In this document: positions 31,429 through 44,656 of the stretch, piece by piece | Numbering within the stretch: the first letter of the stretch is position 1 | Layout: each line of letters opens with the position of its first letter | DNA from: Shewanella pealeana ATCC 700345 | GTDB taxonomy: Bacteria > Pseudomonadota > Gammaproteobacteria > Enterobacterales > Shewanellaceae | Reading direction: 5' to 3' | NCBI RefSeq assembly: GCF_000018285.1 | Contig: NC_009901.1 | Span: 929,001-993,000, forward strand | DNA length: 64,000 bases | Position numbers and translations under genes: made by a program | The notes under the pieces: generated by a model | Seen by the model: only the letters and a program-made list of their open reading frames with translations | What the model was told of the DNA's origin: nothing | The model's database searches: none

Positions 31429-32727
31429 ATGTCGAATCAACAACCTTCACTTCTGAAAAAAGTGTGGTCTAGCTGGATGTCTGTGCCACTTTGGCTACAG
31501 ATCATGATTGGTATGCTGTTAGGTATTTTAACCGGGGTTAGCTTGGGTGAACAGGCGACCTACTTGAAGCCAATTGGTACTCTATTTGTTAATACTATCA
31601 AAATGTTGATTGTACCATTAGTGTTCTGCTCCCTAATTGTCGGCGTAACTTCTATGCAAGATACCGCCAAGATGGGACGCATTGGTTTCAAGTCGTTCGC
31701 TTTCTACTTAGGCACAACCTCTATCGCAATCACGCTAGGTTTAGCCGTTGGCCACATTATGCAGCCGGGCACGGGCCTTGACATGGTAGCTCATGAAACA
31801 GCTGAAGTGGTCAAGCAAGCGCCGTCAATCATGCAGACCTTGATTGATATCGTGCCAACTAACCCGATTGCAGCGCTTGCTAGTGGCCAGATTTTACAGG
31901 TGATTGTGTTTGCAGTTGCGCTGGGTATTGCTTTAGTACTGATTGGTGAACATGGTAAGCCTGCTATCAAGGTGTTCGAAAGCCTAGCCGAAGCCATGTA
32001 TAAGCTGACTGACTTAGTAATGAAGTTTGCACCATACGGCGTATTTGGCCTGATGGCATGGGTTGCTGGCGAGTATGGTGTCGACATGTTGATGCCGTTA
32101 ATAAAGGTTATTATCGCTGTTTATATTGGCTGTTTCCTGCATGTTGTTGGCTTCTATAGCTTCGTTTTAGTGGTATTCGCTAAGCTTAACCCTATTCAAT
32201 TCTTTAAAGGCATTAGTAATGCGATTGCGGTGGCTTATACTACTTCGAGCTCTGCGGGTACGCTGCCAGCGAGTATGAAGTGTGCCAGTGAGTACTTAGG
32301 CGTTAATAAGAAGATCTCAAGCTTCGTATTGCCATTAGGTACCACCATCAACATGGATGGTACCGCGCTTTATCAAGGTGTTACGGCATTGTTTGTGGCA
32401 CAAGCTTTCGGTATCGATCTGACTTGGGTCGATTACATCACTATCATCTTGACTGCAACGCTAGCCTCTATTGGTACAGCGGGTGTGCCGGGTGCGGGTC
32501 TTGTGATGTTGACGCTAGTATTGACCACTGTGGGTCTACCACTTGAAGGCGTTGCCCTTATTGCCGGTATCGACCGAATTTTGGATATGGCGCGTACCGT
32601 AGTAAACGTCTCTGGTGACTTAGTAGCCACCACAGTTATTGCTAAGTCTGAAGGTGAGATTGACGTTGAGCACTACAATGCTAACGCAGAAGACAGTGCA
32701 GAAATGGCTGAAAAGCTAAACTCTTAA
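31429..32727 (+). CDS. Dicarboxylate/amino acid:cation symporter (DAACS)
   Basis: 432-residue member of the GltP/DctA/SstT superfamily, with eight transmembrane helices and re-entrant hairpins. The serine-rich hairpin 1 'YTTSSSAGTLPASMKC' and TM7 'TTINMDGTALYQGV' are hallmarks of the Na+/H+ coupled glutamate/aspartate carriers, and 'GTAGVPGAGLVMLTLVL' is hairpin 2. Glutamate, aspartate or a C4-dicarboxylate is the likely substrate. A strong terminator follows, and past it the hairpin repeat family. Confidence 0.92.
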   Translation: MSNQQPSLLKKVWSSWMSVPLWLQIMIGMLLGILTGVSLGEQATYLKPIGTLFVNTIKMLIVPLVFCSLIVGVTSMQDTAKMGRIGFKSFAFYLGTTSIAITLGLAVGHIMQPGTGLDMVAHETAEVVKQAPSIMQTLIDIVPTNPIAALASGQILQVIVFAVALGIALVLIGEHGKPAIKVFESLAEAMYKLTDLVMKFAPYGVFGLMAWVAGEYGVDMLMPLIKVIIAVYIGCFLHVVGFYSFVLVVFAKLNPIQFFKGISNAIAVAYTTSSSAGTLPASMKCASEYLGVNKKISSFVLPLGTTINMDGTALYQGVTALFVAQAFGIDLTWVDYITIILTATLASIGTAGVPGAGLVMLTLVLTTVGLPLEGVALIAGIDRILDMARTVVNVSGDLVATTVIAKSEGEIDVEHYNANAEDSAEMAEKLNS

Positions 32728-32772
32728 GCCAAGTGAGCTAAGTTTATGTCCACCGCTAATGGTGGGCCAATA

Positions 32773-32799
32773 AAAAACCGCCGAAAGGCGGTTTTTTAT
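32773..32799 (+). terminator. Terminator of the symporter gene
   Basis: AAAAACCGCC-GAAA-GGCGGTTTTTT, a GNRA-loop stem with a T-run. Confidence 0.95.
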
Positions 32800-32800
32800 T

Positions 32801-32996
32801 TCTGGAACATTTATGCCGATTTACCATGGATGGTGAAAAATCGGCTTTATGTCTGGAACATTTATGTCGACTTGCCAAGGATGGCTTTCTTAACACGGTA
32901 AGTCGACGTTATGTCTGGAACATTTATGTCGACTTGCTAAGGATGGCTTTCTCAGCACCGTAAGTCGACGTTATGTCTGGAACATTTATGTCCGCT
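32801..32996 (+). repeat. Tandem hairpin repeat, TCTGGAACATTTATG family, three units
   Basis: Four copies of the spacer TCTGGAACATTTATG (32801, 32852, 32914, 32976) alternate with three hairpins. Outer stems are GCCGATTT/AAATCGGC (32815/32838), GTCGACTT/AAGTCGAC (32866/32900) and GTCGACTT/AAGTCGAC (32928/32962). Each encloses a small inner hairpin, ACCA-TGGA-TGGT, GCCA-AGGA-TGGC or GCTA-AGGA-TGGC. Periods are 51 and 62 bases. It starts one base past the terminator of the symporter gene. Confidence 0.92.
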
Positions 32997-33026
32997 AAAA
33001 CAGCTAATGCAGAACTAGCTAAGCGA

Positions 33027-33440
33027 TTACTTTTTGCTTAGTACCAAAACGGTTTTGTTATCAGCATCTTTCAATACCAATTTACCTTTCGCCATTTGAG
33101 CTTGGGTCACTTCGGGCATTACTTGCATAACGCGTTGCTCTTGTGCCATCAGTGCATCAACACAGGCTTTCATAGTGCTACCTGCAGGCTGTAGCTGTAG
33201 AGATTGGCCGGCGAGTACGTAATTACCGAAAAAGTTATTGCAGCTATTGTTACCAGTTAGCTTACCGTCGGCTGCAAAGATTAATTCTGCGGGGCTGTAA
33301 TCGATGACAGGTTGGCCATTAGCTGACTCAATATGCCAAGTGCCTTCAATGGTTAAATCTTCTACTTGAGTTTGAGGAGACGACTGACAAGCAGTTAAAC
33401 CCAATAGCAAACTTGCTAGGATGAAGGATTGTTTTATCAT
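33027..33440 (-). CDS. META-domain lipoprotein (HslJ-like)
   Basis: 137 residues. The signal peptide ends in the lipobox LTAC, so Cys18 should be lipidated and the protein anchored in the envelope. The rest is one META domain: 'GTWHIESANGQPV', 'FAADGKLTGNNSCNNFFGNY' and 'KACVDALMAQEQRVMQVM', as in E. coli HslJ, which is linked to novobiocin resistance. The precise role here is unknown. Confidence 0.9.
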   Translation of the reverse strand: MIKQSFILASLLLGLTACQSSPQTQVEDLTIEGTWHIESANGQPVIDYSPAELIFAADGKLTGNNSCNNFFGNYVLAGQSLQLQPAGSTMKACVDALMAQEQRVMQVMPEVTQAQMAKGKLVLKDADNKTVLVLSKK

Positions 33441-37375: not shown

Positions 37376-38074
37376 ATGAGTAGTACATCGACACATAAAC
37401 CTCGGCCTATGGTTGACCTGTTAGTGAGCATCGCTATCCCCGCTTTTATTCTAATGAAGCTAAGTGGAGACGATCAGTTAGGTGCGAGTGGTGGTTTAAT
37501 GCTGGCGTTAAGCTTTCCGCTAGGCTGGGGCGTATTTGAGCTGATCAAATATAAGAAGTTTAATTTTATTGCCTTGCTTGGATTAGCTAATGTGCTGTTA
37601 ACTGGTGGCATTGGTTTACTGGAGCTTGACCTTAAGTGGTTGGCAATCAAAGAGGCCGCTATTCCTGCCGCTATCGGCATTGCTGTACTTGTTTCGACCT
37701 TTACCTCTAAGCCACTAATTAAAGCCCTTGTCTTTAATCCAGCGGTGATGGACGTTGATAAAATCATCGAGCGACTACGTCAGAATAATTGTATGGCCGC
37801 ATTTGAGCAGCGACTCATGACGGCCACCTATTTGGTAGCAGGTTCGTTTGCGTTCTCTGCCACCATGAATTACATATTGGCTAAATGGCTAGTCACCAGC
37901 CCAGCGGGGACCCCTGAGTTTAATGCACAGTTGGGAGAGTTGACCTTATACAGTTACCTGATGATCGCCTTACCGTCTATGGTGATGATGATGGGAATTT
38001 TTTATTATTTATGGCGAACTATTCATGATTTAACAGGGCTTAAACTGGAAGAGGTTTTAGCCAATCAGGGATAG
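37376..38074 (+). CDS. VC0807-family integral membrane protein
   Basis: 232 residues with about six hydrophobic helices. The pattern, 'VDLLVSIAIPAFILMKL', 'ALSFPLGWGVFELIK' and a C-terminal 'SYLMIALPSMVMMMGIFYYLW', fits the VC0807/septation-protein-A-like family, whose function is not known. No recognisable active site. It stands alone, bracketed by members of the composite repeat family on both sides. Confidence 0.75.
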   Translation: MSSTSTHKPRPMVDLLVSIAIPAFILMKLSGDDQLGASGGLMLALSFPLGWGVFELIKYKKFNFIALLGLANVLLTGGIGLLELDLKWLAIKEAAIPAAIGIAVLVSTFTSKPLIKALVFNPAVMDVDKIIERLRQNNCMAAFEQRLMTATYLVAGSFAFSATMNYILAKWLVTSPAGTPEFNAQLGELTLYSYLMIALPSMVMMMGIFYYLWRTIHDLTGLKLEEVLANQG

Positions 38075-38089
38075 TTGTCAGGTTGCGGC

Positions 38090-38400
38090 TGACGTTTCGC
38101 TTTACAGCGGTAAGCAATCAAACTTCGTTTGACCTTTAAGTTAGACTTCGTCTAACAACTAAAGTCGTGAGCTTCCAGCTCACACTCGGGCAAAAGGGGG
38201 ACAACAGCTTCCCCCTCTTGCATCACCCGAGCCGCCCCGACGAAGTTGTTATTCCTCATGCTCCAATAAAAATTGCCTAACGGCTCAGATGGGACATCCA
38301 TGTCCCCCCGAGCCTGAACCATCATCCATGATGGTTCTACGGCATTTTCATCTCCGCACTTCGGCAACTCCGATGGGGAACTGGTGTTTTCTGTGAGTTT
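38090..38400 (-). repeat. Composite hairpin repeat, left copy
   Basis: Read on the - strand: ACAGAAAACACC, CCCCATCGGAGTTGCCGA, hairpins ACCATCATGGATGATGGT (38318-38335) and GGACATGGATGTCC (38292-38305), then CAACTTCGTCGGGGCGGC, GTGAGCT-GGA-AGCTCAC (38167-38183), GTTAGAC-GAA-GTCTAAC (38140-38156) and CAAAC-GAA-GTTTG (38119-38131). It is inverted relative to the copy at 39.97-40.37 kb. A 71-codon frame within it is not called as a gene. Confidence 0.88.
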
Positions 38401-38538
38401 TTTGATTTGTTTAACTTCTGCATAGCAGATCTAGAGAGCTTACTCTGACCTATTTATTCCAATTTGTTCTTTTAACCGTAAACACCAACGCTGCTCTAAA
38501 CTGGAAATACCAAGGGGGGGGAGCCTGTCTTAAATGCG

Positions 38539-39558
38539 TTAAGATTTTAATATACGCACGACTTGTAAGTGCGAGCGCTCTTTAAGTTGCTTGGTACTGA
38601 AATAGTCTTGGAATTCGTTCAAAAATGAATCCAACCATTGATGTAGTTCGACTTTTTCGGTACCTAAAAATAAACGCTTCTTAATCAAAACCTCTAGTTT
38701 TACATTAGATAACCAAGGCGAGTCATATTCACCAGGTAGCAGTTCAGTAGGTATATATGCATTGATAGCACCACAATGGACAAAGAACCGAATCTCAAAC
38801 ACATCACTTGAAATTAGAAGAGAGTTGTCTGATAAACGTTTTAATTCAGCACCAGTTGGCAGTTCCAGTACTAATCGATCGAATATTTCACCTCCTTGCC
38901 CGGTAGCCGAACATAATATAGAGGTACCTCCTTCATCATCATAATCACAGAAAGCTGCTCGTTCTTGGTGATTTCTAGTAATTAATTCTAATACTCGGTT
39001 ACGTAAGATTTCCTTAGACATGCAGTCTCTTGGGATGCTTTTAATTTTAGACTTATCAACTCCTTCATGTACAAAATATGACCCTAGATGCAAGCCAAGC
39101 TTCCTCAAAAATAGAAACTCTGTACACGATGCTACGAGGTTATAGTAGTCCAGCTGATCAGGATCATACTTTGTTGGCGCTGTATCATATTCTTTGTACT
39201 TCTTTTCTAAAGCTCGTGAATAAGCCTTATTCTCGAGTGCAAAAGCACGTAAATAGCGAGACATATCATCATTGTATTCATAACCGATGATAGATTTGCC
39301 TTCTAAAGTGAATGGTTGAAAAAAGTAAGCACCTCTCAATCGCAGTGTGTATTTAGTTTTTGGGTTGATAAATTTACTAGCTAAATATAACGACACTACA
39401 ATCAATAAAGCAGCAACGGCTAGTAGGAATTTATTAGCGCCAATTATCTCTGTCAAAAAGTTAGCTAGAAGCGCAACACCAAGTGCGAGACTCACAGCTG
39501 AAATAGCCACCGTAATCAGGTTAACTGATTGAATTTTTGAATTTGTAACTGGTTTCAT
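38539..39558 (-). CDS. Orphan two-TM protein of unknown function
   Basis: 339 residues. Two adjacent transmembrane helices near the N-terminus (about residues 13-35 and 43-62) are followed by a soluble, mostly charged region of 270 residues, presumably cytosolic. No catalytic motif is recognised; 'LLPGEYDSPWLSNVKLEVLIKKR' and 'CDYDDEGGTSILCSATGQGGEI' are notable. The gene is AT-richer than the housekeeping genes around it and sits alone between inverted composite repeats, suggesting an acquired cassette. Two-TM plus sensor-like domain layouts occur among phage-defence effectors, but nothing here proves that role. Confidence 0.75.
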   Translation of the reverse strand: MKPVTNSKIQSVNLITVAISAVSLALGVALLANFLTEIIGANKFLLAVAALLIVVSLYLASKFINPKTKYTLRLRGAYFFQPFTLEGKSIIGYEYNDDMSRYLRAFALENKAYSRALEKKYKEYDTAPTKYDPDQLDYYNLVASCTEFLFLRKLGLHLGSYFVHEGVDKSKIKSIPRDCMSKEILRNRVLELITRNHQERAAFCDYDDEGGTSILCSATGQGGEIFDRLVLELPTGAELKRLSDNSLLISSDVFEIRFFVHCGAINAYIPTELLPGEYDSPWLSNVKLEVLIKKRLFLGTEKVELHQWLDSFLNEFQDYFSTKQLKERSHLQVVRILKS

Positions 39559-40567
39559 GATTACCTTACTAAATTGAAATTCCTAACACTTGTATAGTGG
39601 GGATGCGGCTAACTACATTAGGCTAGTAATAATGTGAATACGCATTTTTCAAATCTACCGCCCCTAAGGTGGGGCTGCTTAAGTTTTTGATAATAATCGA
39701 TAATTTCTTAAGTGGCAAGTTCAGGTGCGCACACTTTATACTAAAGAGGACCAGAATTGTGCTTGAAATCATTATGACTGTACTAACCTCAGCTAAAGGC
39801 TATTAAGTTATGTGGTTAAAAAAGTTTAATTGCAGTAAGTGAACTGTTTTTAGTAGGCTGAATCGTCTTAATTCATACAAATTTTGATATGGTAAACTCA
39901 CCTAAATACTGTCGGCTATAGCTAGTGTACAGTCTCATAAATTGGCAAATTAAGCCTCGAAATTTACAGGAAACACCTAATCCCCATCGGAGTTGCCGAG
40001 GTCATTGAAGGTTCTTGTAAACATTAGGCGCGTGAGCGAGGCATGGATGCCGAGATAGCCTTAGGTGAGCCATGGACGGCGAATATGAGGCGATAGCGAT
40101 TTTCGAAAATGACAGAGGATCAACAACTTCGTCGGGGCGGCAGGGACTCTTTATGGATGAAATAGGCAAGAGGGGGTTGCCGCTGACTTTTTGACCCCTT
40201 CTTGGCCGTGTGTGAGCTGGAAGCTCACGACTTTGGTCAGGCGCAGCCTGATGCCTTAAAAGTCTTGTGTGGGCGAAGCGCCACGATGTTTATCAAGCGG
40301 AGCTTGATTGAGCTAGTATGTTAGACGAAGTCTAACTGTTAACCCTAGGCCGTAAGGCCTCACCCCCACTAGACTGTGGATTCAACAAGATTCTTATCAG
40401 AGCCCTGATACTTCTAAAACAACTGTTTAATATCATAGGGGCGCCGATGTTATAGCGAAAAGTCTCCTTAGATAGGTGTAGCTGACTTGAATATTATTCA
40501 GGCTAATTAAAAAAGTCGTGTGCTAGGTTTAGTGCTTACTAATTTAACGTTAAGGATAAATGGAATT
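39559..40567. other. Repeat-bearing intergenic region
   Basis: About 1 kb with no supported gene. From 39559 to 39960 I see only AT-rich sequence that may include the promoter of the - strand orphan gene. From 39967 on it consists of the right composite repeat, then a relic of a GNAT gene end (about 40389-40465), then the promoter and leader of the duplicated secreted-protein gene. Confidence 0.7.
39967..40370 (+). repeat. Composite hairpin repeat, right copy
   Basis: Begins ACAGGAAACACC, CCCCATCGGAGTTGCCGA, then hairpins GGCATGGATGCC (40040-40051) and GCCATGGACGGC (40069-40080), CAACTTCGTCGGGGCGGC, and an array of mini-hairpins at 40212-40360: GTGAGCT-GGA-AGCTCAC, TCAGGC-GCA-GCCTGA, ATCAAGC-GGA-GCTTGAT, GTTAGAC-GAA-GTCTAAC and AGGCC-GTAA-GGCCT. 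Confidence 0.9.
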
Positions 40568-41521
40568 ATGCTTAAACTGATATTTACTCTTCTTTTCCTA
40601 TTTTTTAGCGGGGTTGCCAATGCATACCCTCGCTGTTTTGATGAGCCTTGTATCAGCTATGACAAAGGAACTGTTAGTTATCAAATTGACGATACGCTTG
40701 CCGATGGCACACCAGTTAAAATCTCGAGTGAAATAGAAGTGAGCTTTAAAGTGAGCCTGTATCGGGGAGAAATTGTCAATCAACCCACCTTGGTGAAACC
40801 AATAGATACCACAATTACGATTGTCTGTGAGGATGATATAGACTGCGACTCTATGGATGGTTTAAACCGCCATGCAGGTGAGAGACTTGTATTTTATAAC
40901 GATTACCTAAGAGAGAAACCTTTCCTCGACTTAGTCGCGGCGAAACACTTTGTTTACCAAGCTGGAAAAACGGCGTTATTTACGACTACTAATTCACTTA
41001 GCACAAGTCGAAGAGAGCTTCTTAGCGCTCTGGCGAAAAATTTTGTGGATAATTTGATTACCCAAGCAGGGTCTCCAATCATTTACATCCAGTTGAAAGG
41101 TGAGAACGGATTAGTACTGCATTTAAAATTAGAGCTAAGTAATGACTACTGGAAAATTGCTGATACGGCTGAAGAAGGGCTACGAAATGAGCTTAATCAA
41201 CTTACAATTCAGTTTAATCAGAGTGAATATGAAGCATTTTATGCGAACCGCCCATGGAGAGAACATTTTCTATCAGGACTGATAAGAATGAAACGCTGCA
41301 GAGAAACAACTGTCACTTCAACGGTTGTGGACTCTGACGGTATCCCGACTCGAGTGACTCGTACGGTTACGTCCTGTTGGTATGAATACCGGTAACAGAT
41401 ACTCTTTGCCTTCCTCAATAATACTCATGAACTGTGTGTTCATGGGTATTATTCGTTGTAGTTCATTCACCTGAGTTAAATATGCTTAAAAAATAAAACG
41501 AAAGCTATCGTTCAATAACTG
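40389..41521. repeat. Tandem duplication, first unit
   Basis: A unit of about 1133 bases repeated at 41522-42660. It starts with a relic of the 3' end of the GNAT gene (compare 42651-42760), contains one secreted-protein gene, and ends where the next GNAT-end relic begins. Unit boundaries are approximate. Confidence 0.85.
40568..41395 (+). CDS. Duplicated secreted protein, copy A
   Basis: 275 residues from the ATG at 40568 (AAGGA 11 bases upstream; the frame itself opens at 40520). A signal peptide, MLKLIFTLLFLFFSGVANA, directs it out of the cytoplasm. The mature protein has paired Cys ('CFDEPC', 'CEDDIDC') and two late Cys in 'MKRCRETT' and 'SCWYEYR', likely in disulfides. I recognise no domain. 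The first about 240 residues are nearly identical to copy B; the last 50 differ clearly. Confidence 0.75.
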   Translation: MLKLIFTLLFLFFSGVANAYPRCFDEPCISYDKGTVSYQIDDTLADGTPVKISSEIEVSFKVSLYRGEIVNQPTLVKPIDTTITIVCEDDIDCDSMDGLNRHAGERLVFYNDYLREKPFLDLVAAKHFVYQAGKTALFTTTNSLSTSRRELLSALAKNFVDNLITQAGSPIIYIQLKGENGLVLHLKLELSNDYWKIADTAEEGLRNELNQLTIQFNQSEYEAFYANRPWREHFLSGLIRMKRCRETTVTSTVVDSDGIPTRVTRTVTSCWYEYR

Positions 41522-41700
41522 CTGATAACCCCATTAATACCAATTCATTATCAGAACTCTGATCGCTCAATAGCAACAGCTATATATAGCTAAAAGTCTA
41601 CGAAGAAGATGTAGCCGACTTGAATATTATTCAGGCTAATTAAAAAAGTCGTGTGCTAGGTTTAGCGCTTACTAATTTAATGTTAAGGATAAATGGAATT

Positions 41701-42528
41701 ATGCTTAAACTGATATTTACTCTTCTTTTCCTATTTTTTAGCGGGGTTGCGAATGCATACCCTCGCTGTTTTGATGAGCCTTGTATCAGCTATGACAAAG
41801 GAACTGTTAGTTATCATATTGACGATACGCTTGCCGATGGCACACCAGTTAAAATCTCGAGTGAAATAGAAGTGAGCTTTAAAGTGAGCCTGTATCGGGG
41901 AGAAATTGTCAATCAACCCACCTTGGTGAAACCAATAGATACCACAATTACGATTGTCTGTGAGGATGATATAGACTGCGACTCTATGGATGGTTTAAAC
42001 CGCCATGCAGGTGAGAGACTTGTATTTTATAACGATTACCTAAGAGAGAAACCTTTCCTCGACTTAGTCGCGGCGAAACACTTTGTTTACCAAGCTGGAA
42101 AAACGGCGTTATTTACGACTACTAATTCACTTAGCACAAGTCGAAGAGAGCTTCTTAGCGCTCTGGCGAAAAATTTTGTGGATAATTTGATTACCCAAGC
42201 AGGGTCTCCAATCGTTTACATCCAGTTGAAAGGTGAGAACGGATTAGTACTGCATTTAAAATTAGAGCTAAGTAATGACTACTGGAAAATTGCTGATACC
42301 GTTGAAGAAGGGCTACGTAATGAGCTTAATCAACTAACAATTTATTTCAATCAGAGTGAATATGAGGCATTTTCTAATAATCGTGCTTGGGGAGAGCATT
42401 TCCTATATGGGGGAATAAGAGTAAAAACGTGCGAGAAAACAAGCGTGACTTCAACGATTGTTACTCCAGACGGTAGCCCATCTCGAGTAACACGCACAGT
42501 TACTTCCTGTTGGTATGAATACCGGTAA
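41701..42528 (+). CDS. Duplicated secreted protein, copy B
   Basis: 275 residues, same start context and signal peptide as copy A, 1133 bases downstream. Over the N-terminal part I see only a few residue changes (for example Q to H in 'SYHIDD' and I to V in 'SPIVYIQ'). From about residue 228 the two diverge ('FSNNRAWGEHFLYGGIRVKTCEKT' against 'FYANRPWREHFLSGLIRMKRCRETT') but keep the terminal 'RVTRTVTSCWYEYR'. Function unknown. Confidence 0.75.
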   Translation: MLKLIFTLLFLFFSGVANAYPRCFDEPCISYDKGTVSYHIDDTLADGTPVKISSEIEVSFKVSLYRGEIVNQPTLVKPIDTTITIVCEDDIDCDSMDGLNRHAGERLVFYNDYLREKPFLDLVAAKHFVYQAGKTALFTTTNSLSTSRRELLSALAKNFVDNLITQAGSPIVYIQLKGENGLVLHLKLELSNDYWKIADTVEEGLRNELNQLTIYFNQSEYEAFSNNRAWGEHFLYGGIRVKTCEKTSVTSTIVTPDGSPSRVTRTVTSCWYEYR

Positions 42529-43124: not shown

Positions 43125-43319
43125 TGTGTAAATACCTCATTCTTAGTCTGTAGAGAGCCGCACTGGGAATATTGCCTGTACATTGATAGTAATCAGAGTG
43201 ATACAAATGAAGCAAGTATCCGCAGCAGGGATGCTGTGGTTAAGCCCTCAGGGATGAGTTTATGGCGTCTTGCGTAATTGTGTCACGCTGATGCAAAACC
43301 TAATACAATAAATTCCAGA

Positions 43320-43434
43320 GACAACGACGATTTACTATTTTGAAAAAGTCATCCTTGGCAAATCGTCATAAATGTTCCAGAGATAGCGACGATTTTTTGC
43401 CATCCTTGGCAAATAGTCATAAATGTTCCGGACA
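43320..43434 (-). repeat. Hairpin repeat of the TCTGGAACATTTATG family, two units
   Basis: On the - strand the order is terminator of metK, CCGGAACATTTATG, hairpin 2 (inner GCCA-AGGA-TGGC, 43399-43410), CTGGAACATTTATG, hairpin 1 (outer GACGATTT/AAATCGTC, 43326-43333 and 43360-43367, inner GCCA-AGGA-TGAC). It matches the repeat at 32.8-33.0 kb and also follows a terminator in the reading direction. Confidence 0.9.
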
Positions 43435-43462
43435 TAAAAAAACCGCCAAGCGGCGGTTTTTA
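43435..43462. terminator. Terminator of metK
   Basis: AAAACCGCC-(AAGC)-GGCGGTTTT with A-runs and T-runs on both sides, so it can work in either direction; metK ends 40 bases to the right. Confidence 0.93.
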
Positions 43463-43501: not shown

Positions 43502-44656
43502 TTAAAGACCTGCGTCAGCGCGTAGTGCGTCAACTTTGTCTGTTGCTTCCCACGGGAACTCGTTACGACCAAAGTGACCGTATGCTGCAGTCGCTTGGTA
43601 GATTGGGCGAGCTAGGTTCAACATCTCTGTTAGACCGTATGGGCGTAGGTCGAAGTGACGACGTACTAGGTCGATCAATAGCTCTTCGCCAACTTTAGCT
43701 GTGCCAAATGTTTCGATGCTGATTGAAGTTGGCTCTGCAACACCAATCGCGTAAGAAACTTGGATCTCACAACGGTCTGCAAGACCTGCTGCAACGATGT
43801 TTTTAGCAACGTAACGTGCTGCGTATGCTGCACTACGGTCAACTTTTGATGGGTCTTTACCAGAGAAAGCACCACCACCGTGACGAGCCATACCACCGTA
43901 TGTGTCAACGATGATCTTACGACCCGTTAGACCACAATCACCTACTGGACCACCGATAACGAAACGGCCAGTTGGGTTGATGAAGTATTTAGTGTCTTTA
44001 GATAACCACTTAGCCGGTAATACTGGCTTGATGATGGTTTCCATTACACCTTCAATTAGGTCTGCTTGAGTCACATCTTCGCTGTGTTGCGTAGATAGAA
44101 CAACTGCATCGATACCAGCAATGCTGCCATCTGAGTTATAAGCAAAAGTCACCTGGCTCTTCGCGTCTGGACGCAACCATGGAAGAGTCTTGTCTTTACG
44201 AACTTCAGACTGACGCTTAACAAGCTTGTGCGAATAAGTGATAGGCGCAGGCATTAGTACGTCAGTTTCGTTGTTAGCGTAACCGAACATTAGACCTTGG
44301 TCACCAGCACCCTGTTCTTTAGGGTCTGCACGATCAACACCTTGGTTGATGTCTGGAGACTGCTTACCAATCACGTTTAAGATGGCGCAAGAATCGGCAT
44401 CAAAACCCATGTCTGAGTGAGTGTAGCCAATGTCGCGTACAGTCTTACGGGTGATCTCTTCGATATCAACCCAGGCTGAAGTGGTAACTTCGCCGCCAAC
44501 CATAACCATGCCAGTTTTGACATAAGTTTCGCATGCTACACGAGCTTTTGGATCTTGCTCCAAAATTGCGTCTAGTACCGCATCAGAAATCTGATCGGCG
44601 ATTTTATCTGGATGACCTTCTGAGACCGACTCAGAGGTAAACAAGTGCTTTGCCAT
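43502..44656 (-). CDS. metK: S-adenosylmethionine synthetase
   Basis: Makes SAM from methionine and ATP. 384 residues, as in E. coli. Signatures: N-terminal '[18 protein letters not shown]', the ATP-binding '[12 protein letters not shown]', and '[22 protein letters not shown]'. Codon bias is that of a highly expressed gene. A MetJ-like operator lies just upstream, predicting repression when SAM is plentiful. It is divergent from tkt. Confidence 0.97.

Follow-up and report, generated by a model that had tools for sequence, protein, structure and literature searches.

The best-known CsrA sponges are dedicated sRNA genes, as are CsrB/CsrC and RsmX/Y/Z, in which many GGA sites are gathered into one RNA; in S. 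oneidensis, CsrB1 and CsrB2 are described as being under the control of BarA/UvrY (PMC3171408). SELEX and NMR work on CsrA/RsmE gave the consensus RUACARGGAUGU, with GGA in a hairpin loop as part of an ANGGAN hexaloop, and most of the SELEX ligands have four or fewer stem pairs (PMC7652899). In E. coli, GGA sites mediate the in vitro binding of CsrA to the read-through sRNAs rrA, rrB and rrF, whose in vivo effects are only modest (PMC8144298), and the Rsm proteins of Pseudomonas putida pulled down intergenic RNA adjoining or resembling the flanks of ISPpu8, one such RNA being a long palindrome (PMC7937890). These two cases may serve as precedents for read-through or repeat RNA reaching CsrA/Rsm proteins. 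Another described structure of this kind is TwoAYGGAY (Rfam RF01731, clan CL00106), recorded from gammaproteobacteria among others, in which two neighbouring hairpins with AYGGAY loops lie inside an outer stem. TwoAYGGAY was described in 2010, and a 2014 paper gives its function as unknown and proposes that it binds CsrA (PMC4333381). Apart from the P. putida pull-down, no dispersed or terminator-linked repeats with CsrA sites appeared in the literature that we searched, which largely excludes subscription journals.

Here we describe dispersed, evolving candidate CsrA sites in two repeat families of Shewanella pealeana, found in a 64,000-nucleotide stretch of DNA (the window; positions 929001-993000 of the 5.17-Mb genome). 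We propose, with a probability of about 0.4, that these repeats are dispersed CsrA-type hairpins that act as many small CsrA decoys, a reading that presupposes that they are transcribed, that CsrA binds them and that enough of it is titrated. A first-pass annotation, made from the letters of the window, had named eight CANGGANG sites in two different repeat families and likened their loops to the CsrA/RsmE consensus. All eight sites were located by a motif search of the window (32825, 32876, 38295(-), 38323(-), 40042, 40071, 43350(-) and 43401(-)), and the third family A unit of the 32.8-kb array, with the loop TAAGGATG, can be added to them. The division into two families is borne out as well, with outer sequences that differ around a common loop, and that loop fits the consensus, being ANGGA with a free N. 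Family A, found at 32.8 and 43.4 kb, is a tandem unit made of the linker TTATGTCTGGAACATTTATG followed by a hairpin topped by CCANGGANGG, so that each unit has two GGA-loop hairpins ~24 nt apart. Its units mostly repeat every 51 or 50 nt, though longer periods of, for example, 57 and 62 nt occur (overall mostly 50-62 nt), and its arrays contain 1 to 19 linker copies. In family B, the ends CCCCATCGGAGTTGCC and CAACTTCGTCGGGGCGGC pair as an outer stem that encloses two hairpins, the same anatomy as TwoAYGGAY. Coordinates of both families and their host genes are collected in Table 1; at 32.8 kb, the T-tract of the symporter terminator passes directly into the array.

Table 1. Repeat elements of families A and B in the window, with the host genes and terminators of the family A arrays.
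Feature	Position in window	Strand	Evidence or remark
Sodium:dicarboxylate-family symporter gene, host of 32.8-kb array	31429-32727	+	Pfam SDF
Intrinsic terminator of symporter gene	32769..32800	+	14-bp inverted repeat
Family A unit 1: GGA-loop linker hairpin and hairpin ACCATGGATGGT	32797..32847	+	model R1, 69.1 bits; main loop open in whole-array fold
Family A unit 2, 62-nt long form, loop CAAGGATG	32848..32909	+	model R1, 48 bits; repeat D3; loop not open in whole-array fold
Family A unit 3, 62-nt long form, loop TAAGGATG	32910..32971	+	model R1, 45.7 bits; loop not open in whole-array fold
Closing linker copy, array end	32972..32992	+	repeat family D1; model R1, 29.6 bits over 32972-33032
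Downstream hairpin GTGAGCTGGAAGCTCAC of 38.3-kb family B element, GGA in loop	38167..38183	-	folds as hairpin
Family B element, TwoAYGGAY-like: outer stem and two CATGGATG hairpins (38316-38337, ~38291-38306)	38231..38378	-	RF01731 at 38278-38339, 41.1 bits, E 1.6e-4
Family B element: hairpins GGCATGGATGCC and GCCATGGACGGC	39982..40141	+	RF01731 at 40035-40092, 31.4 bits, E 0.025
Matching downstream GGA-loop hairpin of 40.0-kb family B element	40212..40228	+	folds as hairpin
Family A unit 2 behind metK, long form	43324..43385	-	model R1, 37.7 bits
Family A unit 1 behind metK, loop CAAGGATG	43386..43436	-	model R1, 64 bits
Intrinsic terminator of metK	43438..43461	-	10-bp inverted repeat
metK, host of 43.4-kb array	43502-44656	-	TIGR01034

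The annotation had proposed counting hairpins with the loop motif against shuffled sequence; in our counts the hairpin context is enriched but the bare motif is not. Bare CANGGANG occurs 29 times in the window against 22.4 +/- 5 in shuffles, with 8 of 100 shuffles reaching at least 29. ANGGAN hexaloops on perfect stems of at least 4 bp occur 6 times in the intergenic DNA of the window, where 0.58 are expected (rank 1 of 256 loop types), and 4 against 0.22 and 3 against 0.11 remain for stems of at least 5 and 6 bp; in a separate 400-kb sample of the S. pealeana genome the corresponding counts are 14 against 2.8 (rank 4), 7 against 1.0 (rank 8) and 3 against 0.52 (rank 15), all of these counts including repeat copies that are not mutually independent. 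Near family A arrays with the units masked, ANGGAN hairpins number 18 against 1.39 expected, again rank 1 of 256, and 13 have stems of at least 5 bp, most of them a single type, GACCCAY. At stems of the form GCCA/TGGC, the same genome has no bias towards the loop (8 of 237 sites, with ~7 expected). Beside the metK array, on the opposite strand, two CAGGGATG motifs lie 23 nt apart at 43226-43233 and 43249-43256 (+), within GCAGCAGGGATGCTGT and CCCTCAGGGATGAG, and may form extra GGA hairpins.

In family A, the loop stays constant while the stems around it change. In the 51-nt register, 105 of 274 distinct units have an outer stem with no fewer than 7 of its 8 pairs, a set picked by the outer stem alone with the loop ignored, and ANGGA is kept in 103 of these 105. 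Its second position is T in 68, G in 22, A in 10 and C in 3 of the 103 units, and is thus free; among stem-picked units in the 50-nt register, ANGGA is found in 33 of 38. A gapless alignment of 64 rows, taken from 303 extracted units by three criteria (a motif score of at least 7, no plain mismatch in at least 7 of the 8 outer pairs, and stems that differ from one another), has 95.5% of its cells paired (79.0 when shuffled), 150 double changes (38.6 when shuffled) and a covariation score of 0.439, against at most 0.137 for slid versions. For 138 units picked by at least 6 of 9 matches to CCANGGATGG and with no stem selection, 1262 of 1518 cells are paired against a shuffled mean of 1007; because these units were chosen by matches to CCANGGATGG their loop counts are biased, and the 105-unit test, in which the loop was ignored, repeats the loop count. 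RNAalifold, applied to the family A alignment, finds the linker hairpin and the long outer helix without guidance but misses the 3-bp inner helix. The linker loop is CTGGA in 229 of the 274 units, the linkers having been located by a pattern that contains this loop and allows 3 substitutions, and the linker helix exchanges A-U for G-C at its first pair. Wobble pairs are mixed, with G-U against A-C counts of 39 and 12 in the linker (30 and 3 at one pair), 37 and 67 in the 51-nt units, and 48 and 24 in the 50-nt units (38 of the 48 at one fixed pair), so this strand test of family A gives no clear pointer to the GGA strand.

The constancy of the loop bears on one explanation of the repeats, that a sequence that happened to hold CANGGANG was amplified by copying. 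Such an origin would fit the flat count of the bare motif in the window, but compensatory stem changes around a persistent loop, and the occurrence of this loop in further hairpins close to the arrays, argue against it. It is already contradicted by the contrast between loop and stem, and we consider it very improbable. Whole-array folds of the family A copies in the window leave the main ANGGA loop open in only one of the three 32.8-kb units and in neither of the two 43.4-kb units. The linkers do not form their hairpins in these folds, and those at 32.8 kb pair with each other instead (fold z of -5.4 for the 32.8-kb array and -2.5 for the 43.4-kb array). Because most of these main loops are not open in the whole-array folds, we hold the reading of the repeats as CsrA decoys with slightly less confidence.

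Family A has a defined position with respect to genes. We collected 162 unique arrays, of which 147 have enough flank for a terminator test and 146 have an upstream reading frame within 260 nt. An intrinsic terminator on the same strand lies within 150 nt upstream of 123 of the 147 testable arrays, and the T-tract starts exactly 3 nt before the linker match in 107 of them, although the array pattern favours T-tracts because it demands TTT before the linker. Of 29 arrays found without that demand, 25 have the terminator, 23 of them at the 3-nt spacing, and the gene upstream shares the strand of its array in all 28 cases scored. The same terminator test succeeds at 14 of 441 random positions of the same loci, and for 141 of 145 arrays overall the upstream gene has the same orientation as the array. 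Grouping the 146 arrays by their upstream reading frames gives 66 gene clusters, 31 of them with at least two arrays, a few clusters containing two arrays of one locus. Nine clusters have best matches to rpoH, arcA, dsbA, sucD, atpC, fabB, fldA, cysS and tyrS, matched by 60-residue C-terminal pieces with scores below whole-protein cut-offs. Among the best-matching 30 of 60 metK loci of the genus, the gene end was located in 26; the terminator, judged by eye, is present at all 26 of these readable sites, with the array behind it at 8. The element has therefore been added behind existing terminators, or lost from them; in an empty-site comparison at metK, no pair was clean enough for reading a target duplication. 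Fail-safe terminators were considered as a role for the units and rejected, T-tracts being absent after the unit hairpins as judged by eye.

A downstream terminator follows within 150 nt in just 7 of 147 arrays, and family A is therefore no ready-made sRNA with its own terminator-bounded transcript of the CsrB/RsmZ type. The many GGA sites that one array would place in a single RNA resemble CsrB/CsrC and RsmX/Y/Z, whereas the repeats here are dispersed behind the terminators of other genes. In position and loops, family A resembles rrA/rrB/rrF, which are likewise RNA behind a first terminator with GGA loops; unlike family A, these come from three operons only, have a second terminator as their boundary and form no tandem arrays. 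In several composite arrays (loci L086, L094, L123, L129 and L166), additional hairpins seen by eye lie between the terminator and the first linker; these are GTATANGGATATAC, and TTATCCCC..GGGGATT around GCNNGGATNGC, apparently with ANGGA loops too. The array with 19 linker copies is at locus L174, from 1806 (+).

An RNA-binding protein or RNase other than CsrA could read the GGA loops, for example while trimming or protecting 3' ends behind terminators. The sense orientation of the arrays behind genes suits such a role at 3' ends, and the stem covariation suits a folded single strand, but ANGGA with a free N is the consensus of CsrA/RsmE. We know of no other protein with an ANGGA free-N loop consensus, and consider this account rather improbable.

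The same linkage to terminators could also arise at the DNA level, if the repeats were mobile hairpin elements, REP/IS200-like or terminator-homing, whose hairpins and loops are recognized as single-stranded DNA by a transposase or reverse transcriptase. Terminators, which also form hairpins, would then be preferred targets, and the GGA loop would be a DNA recognition mark. Consistent with this, the repeats are dispersed, tandem and missing from sister genomes, the metK terminator is present whether or not an array follows, and the register to the T-tract is fixed. Group IIC introns insert just behind intrinsic terminators, a site like that of family A, although family A units are only ~51 nt long. 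REP/BIME palindromes with RAYT transposases are dispersed intergenic hairpins, as are the repeats here, and some marine Shewanella species are reported to have GTAG REP families (PMC3733652). In GTAG-tagged REPs the tag is at the foot of the hairpin, whereas in the 64-row alignment the foot of family A is TTATG and GTAG is absent. REP-type transposases over the NF047646 cut-off occur in 8 of 48 genomes of the genus, and 7 of these 8 carry family A by a hand count uncorrected for kinship, but 10 of the 17 genomes with family A have no transposase over the cut-off. Of the 8 best transposase loci of the genus, one has a family A linker ~1 kb away, while the other 7 have none within 1.5 kb. The GGA loop is moreover common to families with different outer sequences, which a single transposase would not explain, and N is free within it. 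We regard mobile DNA as the foremost alternative explanation of the repeats, a serious one though less probable than CsrA decoys. A REP transposase as the driver was set aside for these 8 loci, where no family A copy adjoins the transposase. In a wider set, a REP-type transposase over the curated cut-off is present in 9 of 60 genomes of the genus, and its co-occurrence with family A could reflect shared ancestry.

Family A is restricted to Shewanella in the genomes searched. The S. pealeana genome has 6 copies by pattern and 10 by covariance model, and the pattern is present in 17 of 48 genomes of the genus, this one included, and absent from 31; no match was found among 31 genomes of other genera. 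An order-wide search with model R1 gave matches in 4 of 295 genomes, all of the same genus (1 of 99 genera), a number that may be an undercount given its stricter filters and 20 candidates scored per genome. In a collection of named genomes, the linker TTTRTGTCTGGAACAYTTATG occurs in at least 120 stretches, and 80 of the 80 records listed by name are Shewanella. The 32.8-kb array has no match in plasmids and phages, and at the gathering threshold Rfam finds no match in the window for family A or anything else. Compared with TwoAYGGAY, family A is a tandem unit of one hairpin plus linker, with no gathering-level match. The annotation had suggested a possibly undescribed distributed sponge: family A is indeed new as far as our literature searches show, but family B resembles TwoAYGGAY, and the proposal that its kind binds CsrA has been in print since 2014.

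The resemblance of family B to TwoAYGGAY is seen in a relaxed-threshold Rfam scan of 37900-40500, in which both elements of the window score below the RF01731 gathering score of 43 bits. The RF01731 alignments place AUGGAU/AUGGAU in the loops at 38.3 kb and AUGGAU/AUGGAC at 40.0 kb; both elements thus have the two adjacent AYGGAY-loop hairpins, and all four loops are open in folds. The fold z of the family B regions is -8.5 at 38.3 kb and -1.62 at 40.0 kb (39978-40240), the latter little better than shuffles. The right-end pattern has 29 matches in the S. pealeana genome and is seen in 28 of 60 genomes of the genus, in some of which no left end accompanies it and the match seems fortuitous. 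In 49 distinct elements that have both ends, GGA is in or at the loop in 62 of 80 inner hairpins of five or more perfect pairs, on many different stems, with some of the copies near-identical. At least one inner hairpin with a GGA loop is found in 34 of the 49 elements; of the other 15, 11 lack any perfect 5-bp hairpin, the 40.0-kb copy of the window among them, and 4 have other loops. The third hairpin, GTGAGCTGGAAGCTCAC, lies within 140 nt downstream in 28 of 50 family B copies examined.

Family B elements are often paired 1 to 4 kb apart, several of the pairs inverted, in a manner that resembles the ends of gene cassettes. In the S. pealeana genome such pairs are found at 38231-40141 of the window and at genome positions 904496(-)/906236(+), 1006920(-)/1009476(+) and 4244110(-)/4245091(+). 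The pair in the window brackets a 339-aa reading frame at 38539-39558(-), and beside it are two adjacent 291-aa frames at 40520-41395 (+) and 41653-42528 (+), none of the three with a Pfam or NCBIfam match. Some copies (loci L351, L354, L261, L263 and L269) have an insert of ~50-70 nt in the second hairpin that carries a hairpin of its own, mostly with TCC in its loop; they look as though a repeat had inserted itself into the loop of another.

The annotation's statement that Shewanella encodes CsrA agrees with the S. pealeana genome, which contains a single CsrA match; the 52 residues compared are all identical to those of a solved CsrA (1y00). Since the loops match the CsrA/RsmE consensus and the genome encodes the protein, we take CsrA binding as the likeliest cause of the loop conservation. 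ANGGAN on a short hairpin is the shared feature of CsrA/RsmE sites and the repeats, with N free in both, although the SELEX ligands mostly have no more than four pairs and many of the repeat stems are longer. Together with the presence of CsrA, our proposal that the repeats are CsrA decoys rests on loop conservation as opposed to stem covariation, sense orientation, linkage to terminators, and enrichment of the loop in hairpins.

In the mechanism that we propose, the conserved feature of the repeats would be an RNA loop, A-N-G-G-A on a short stem, that is recognized by CsrA. Family A would be added in sense orientation immediately after intrinsic terminators, and many of the genes concerned are housekeeping genes. 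As the arrays sit just behind a terminator, transcription of family A, which the annotation had left conditional, means read-through: transcripts from polymerases that pass the terminator would be extended at the 3' end by two GGA hairpins for each unit, or two to nearly forty per array. A CsrA dimer may bridge distances such as the ~24 nt within a unit. Family B would contribute two or three such hairpins, two of them within its outer stem, and the two families together would make many small CsrA decoys. The annotation had weighed decoys alongside CsrA control of genes; of these the decoy is likelier, and control of genes less likely because family A lies behind genes and not at ribosome sites. 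If the proposal is right, the output of family A would track the expression of the host genes; repeat content would help to set the level of free CsrA, and terminator read-through would gain a regulatory product. The repeats would also provide a setting for testing the CsrA binding proposed for TwoAYGGAY.

CsrA could also bind the repeats in the service of the repeats themselves, through RNA stability or copying, with no useful titration for the cell. Their patchy distribution and variable array length would fit such a relationship, as would the binding of P. putida Rsm proteins to RNA beside ISPpu8 copies (PMC7937890). In contrast, the recurrence of arrays behind related upstream genes, in nearly half of the clusters, suggests retention, and we consider it improbable that CsrA binding serves the repeat alone.

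Hairpins with this loop are also abundant in genomes far from Shewanella. The sequence GCCANGGATGGC occurs in 305 of 369 genomes of the class, with high counts (reversed control in brackets) of 383 (2) in G326, 141 (1) in G367, 64 (0) in G087, 61 (0) in its genus mate G349 and 49 (2) in G350. At GCCA-NNNN-TGGC sites, where an NGGA loop is expected in 3.1%, it is found at 383 of 477 sites (80%) in G326, 141 of 241 (59%) in G367, 64 of 251 (25%) in G087 and 49 of 481 (10%) in G350, four genomes chosen as extremes among the highest counts of the 369. The flanks of the sites in these four distant genomes differ from the Shewanella flanks, and one locus of G367 (L215) reaches the TwoAYGGAY gathering score, with 43.1 against 43. 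That different repeats share one loop suggests that the loop itself is what is selected. It is conceivable, though we think it unlikely, that terminator-homing repeats of Shewanella turn housekeeping read-through into CsrA titration, as a distributed sponge that has no dedicated gene and is dosed by host-gene expression, that other gammaproteobacterial repeats do likewise, and that mobile repeats are a general route for tuning CsrA; if so, up to several hundred GGA-loop hairpins per genome would have the same role in other gammaproteobacteria. In G326, several of the NGGA-loop sites occur as two hairpins 34 nt apart.
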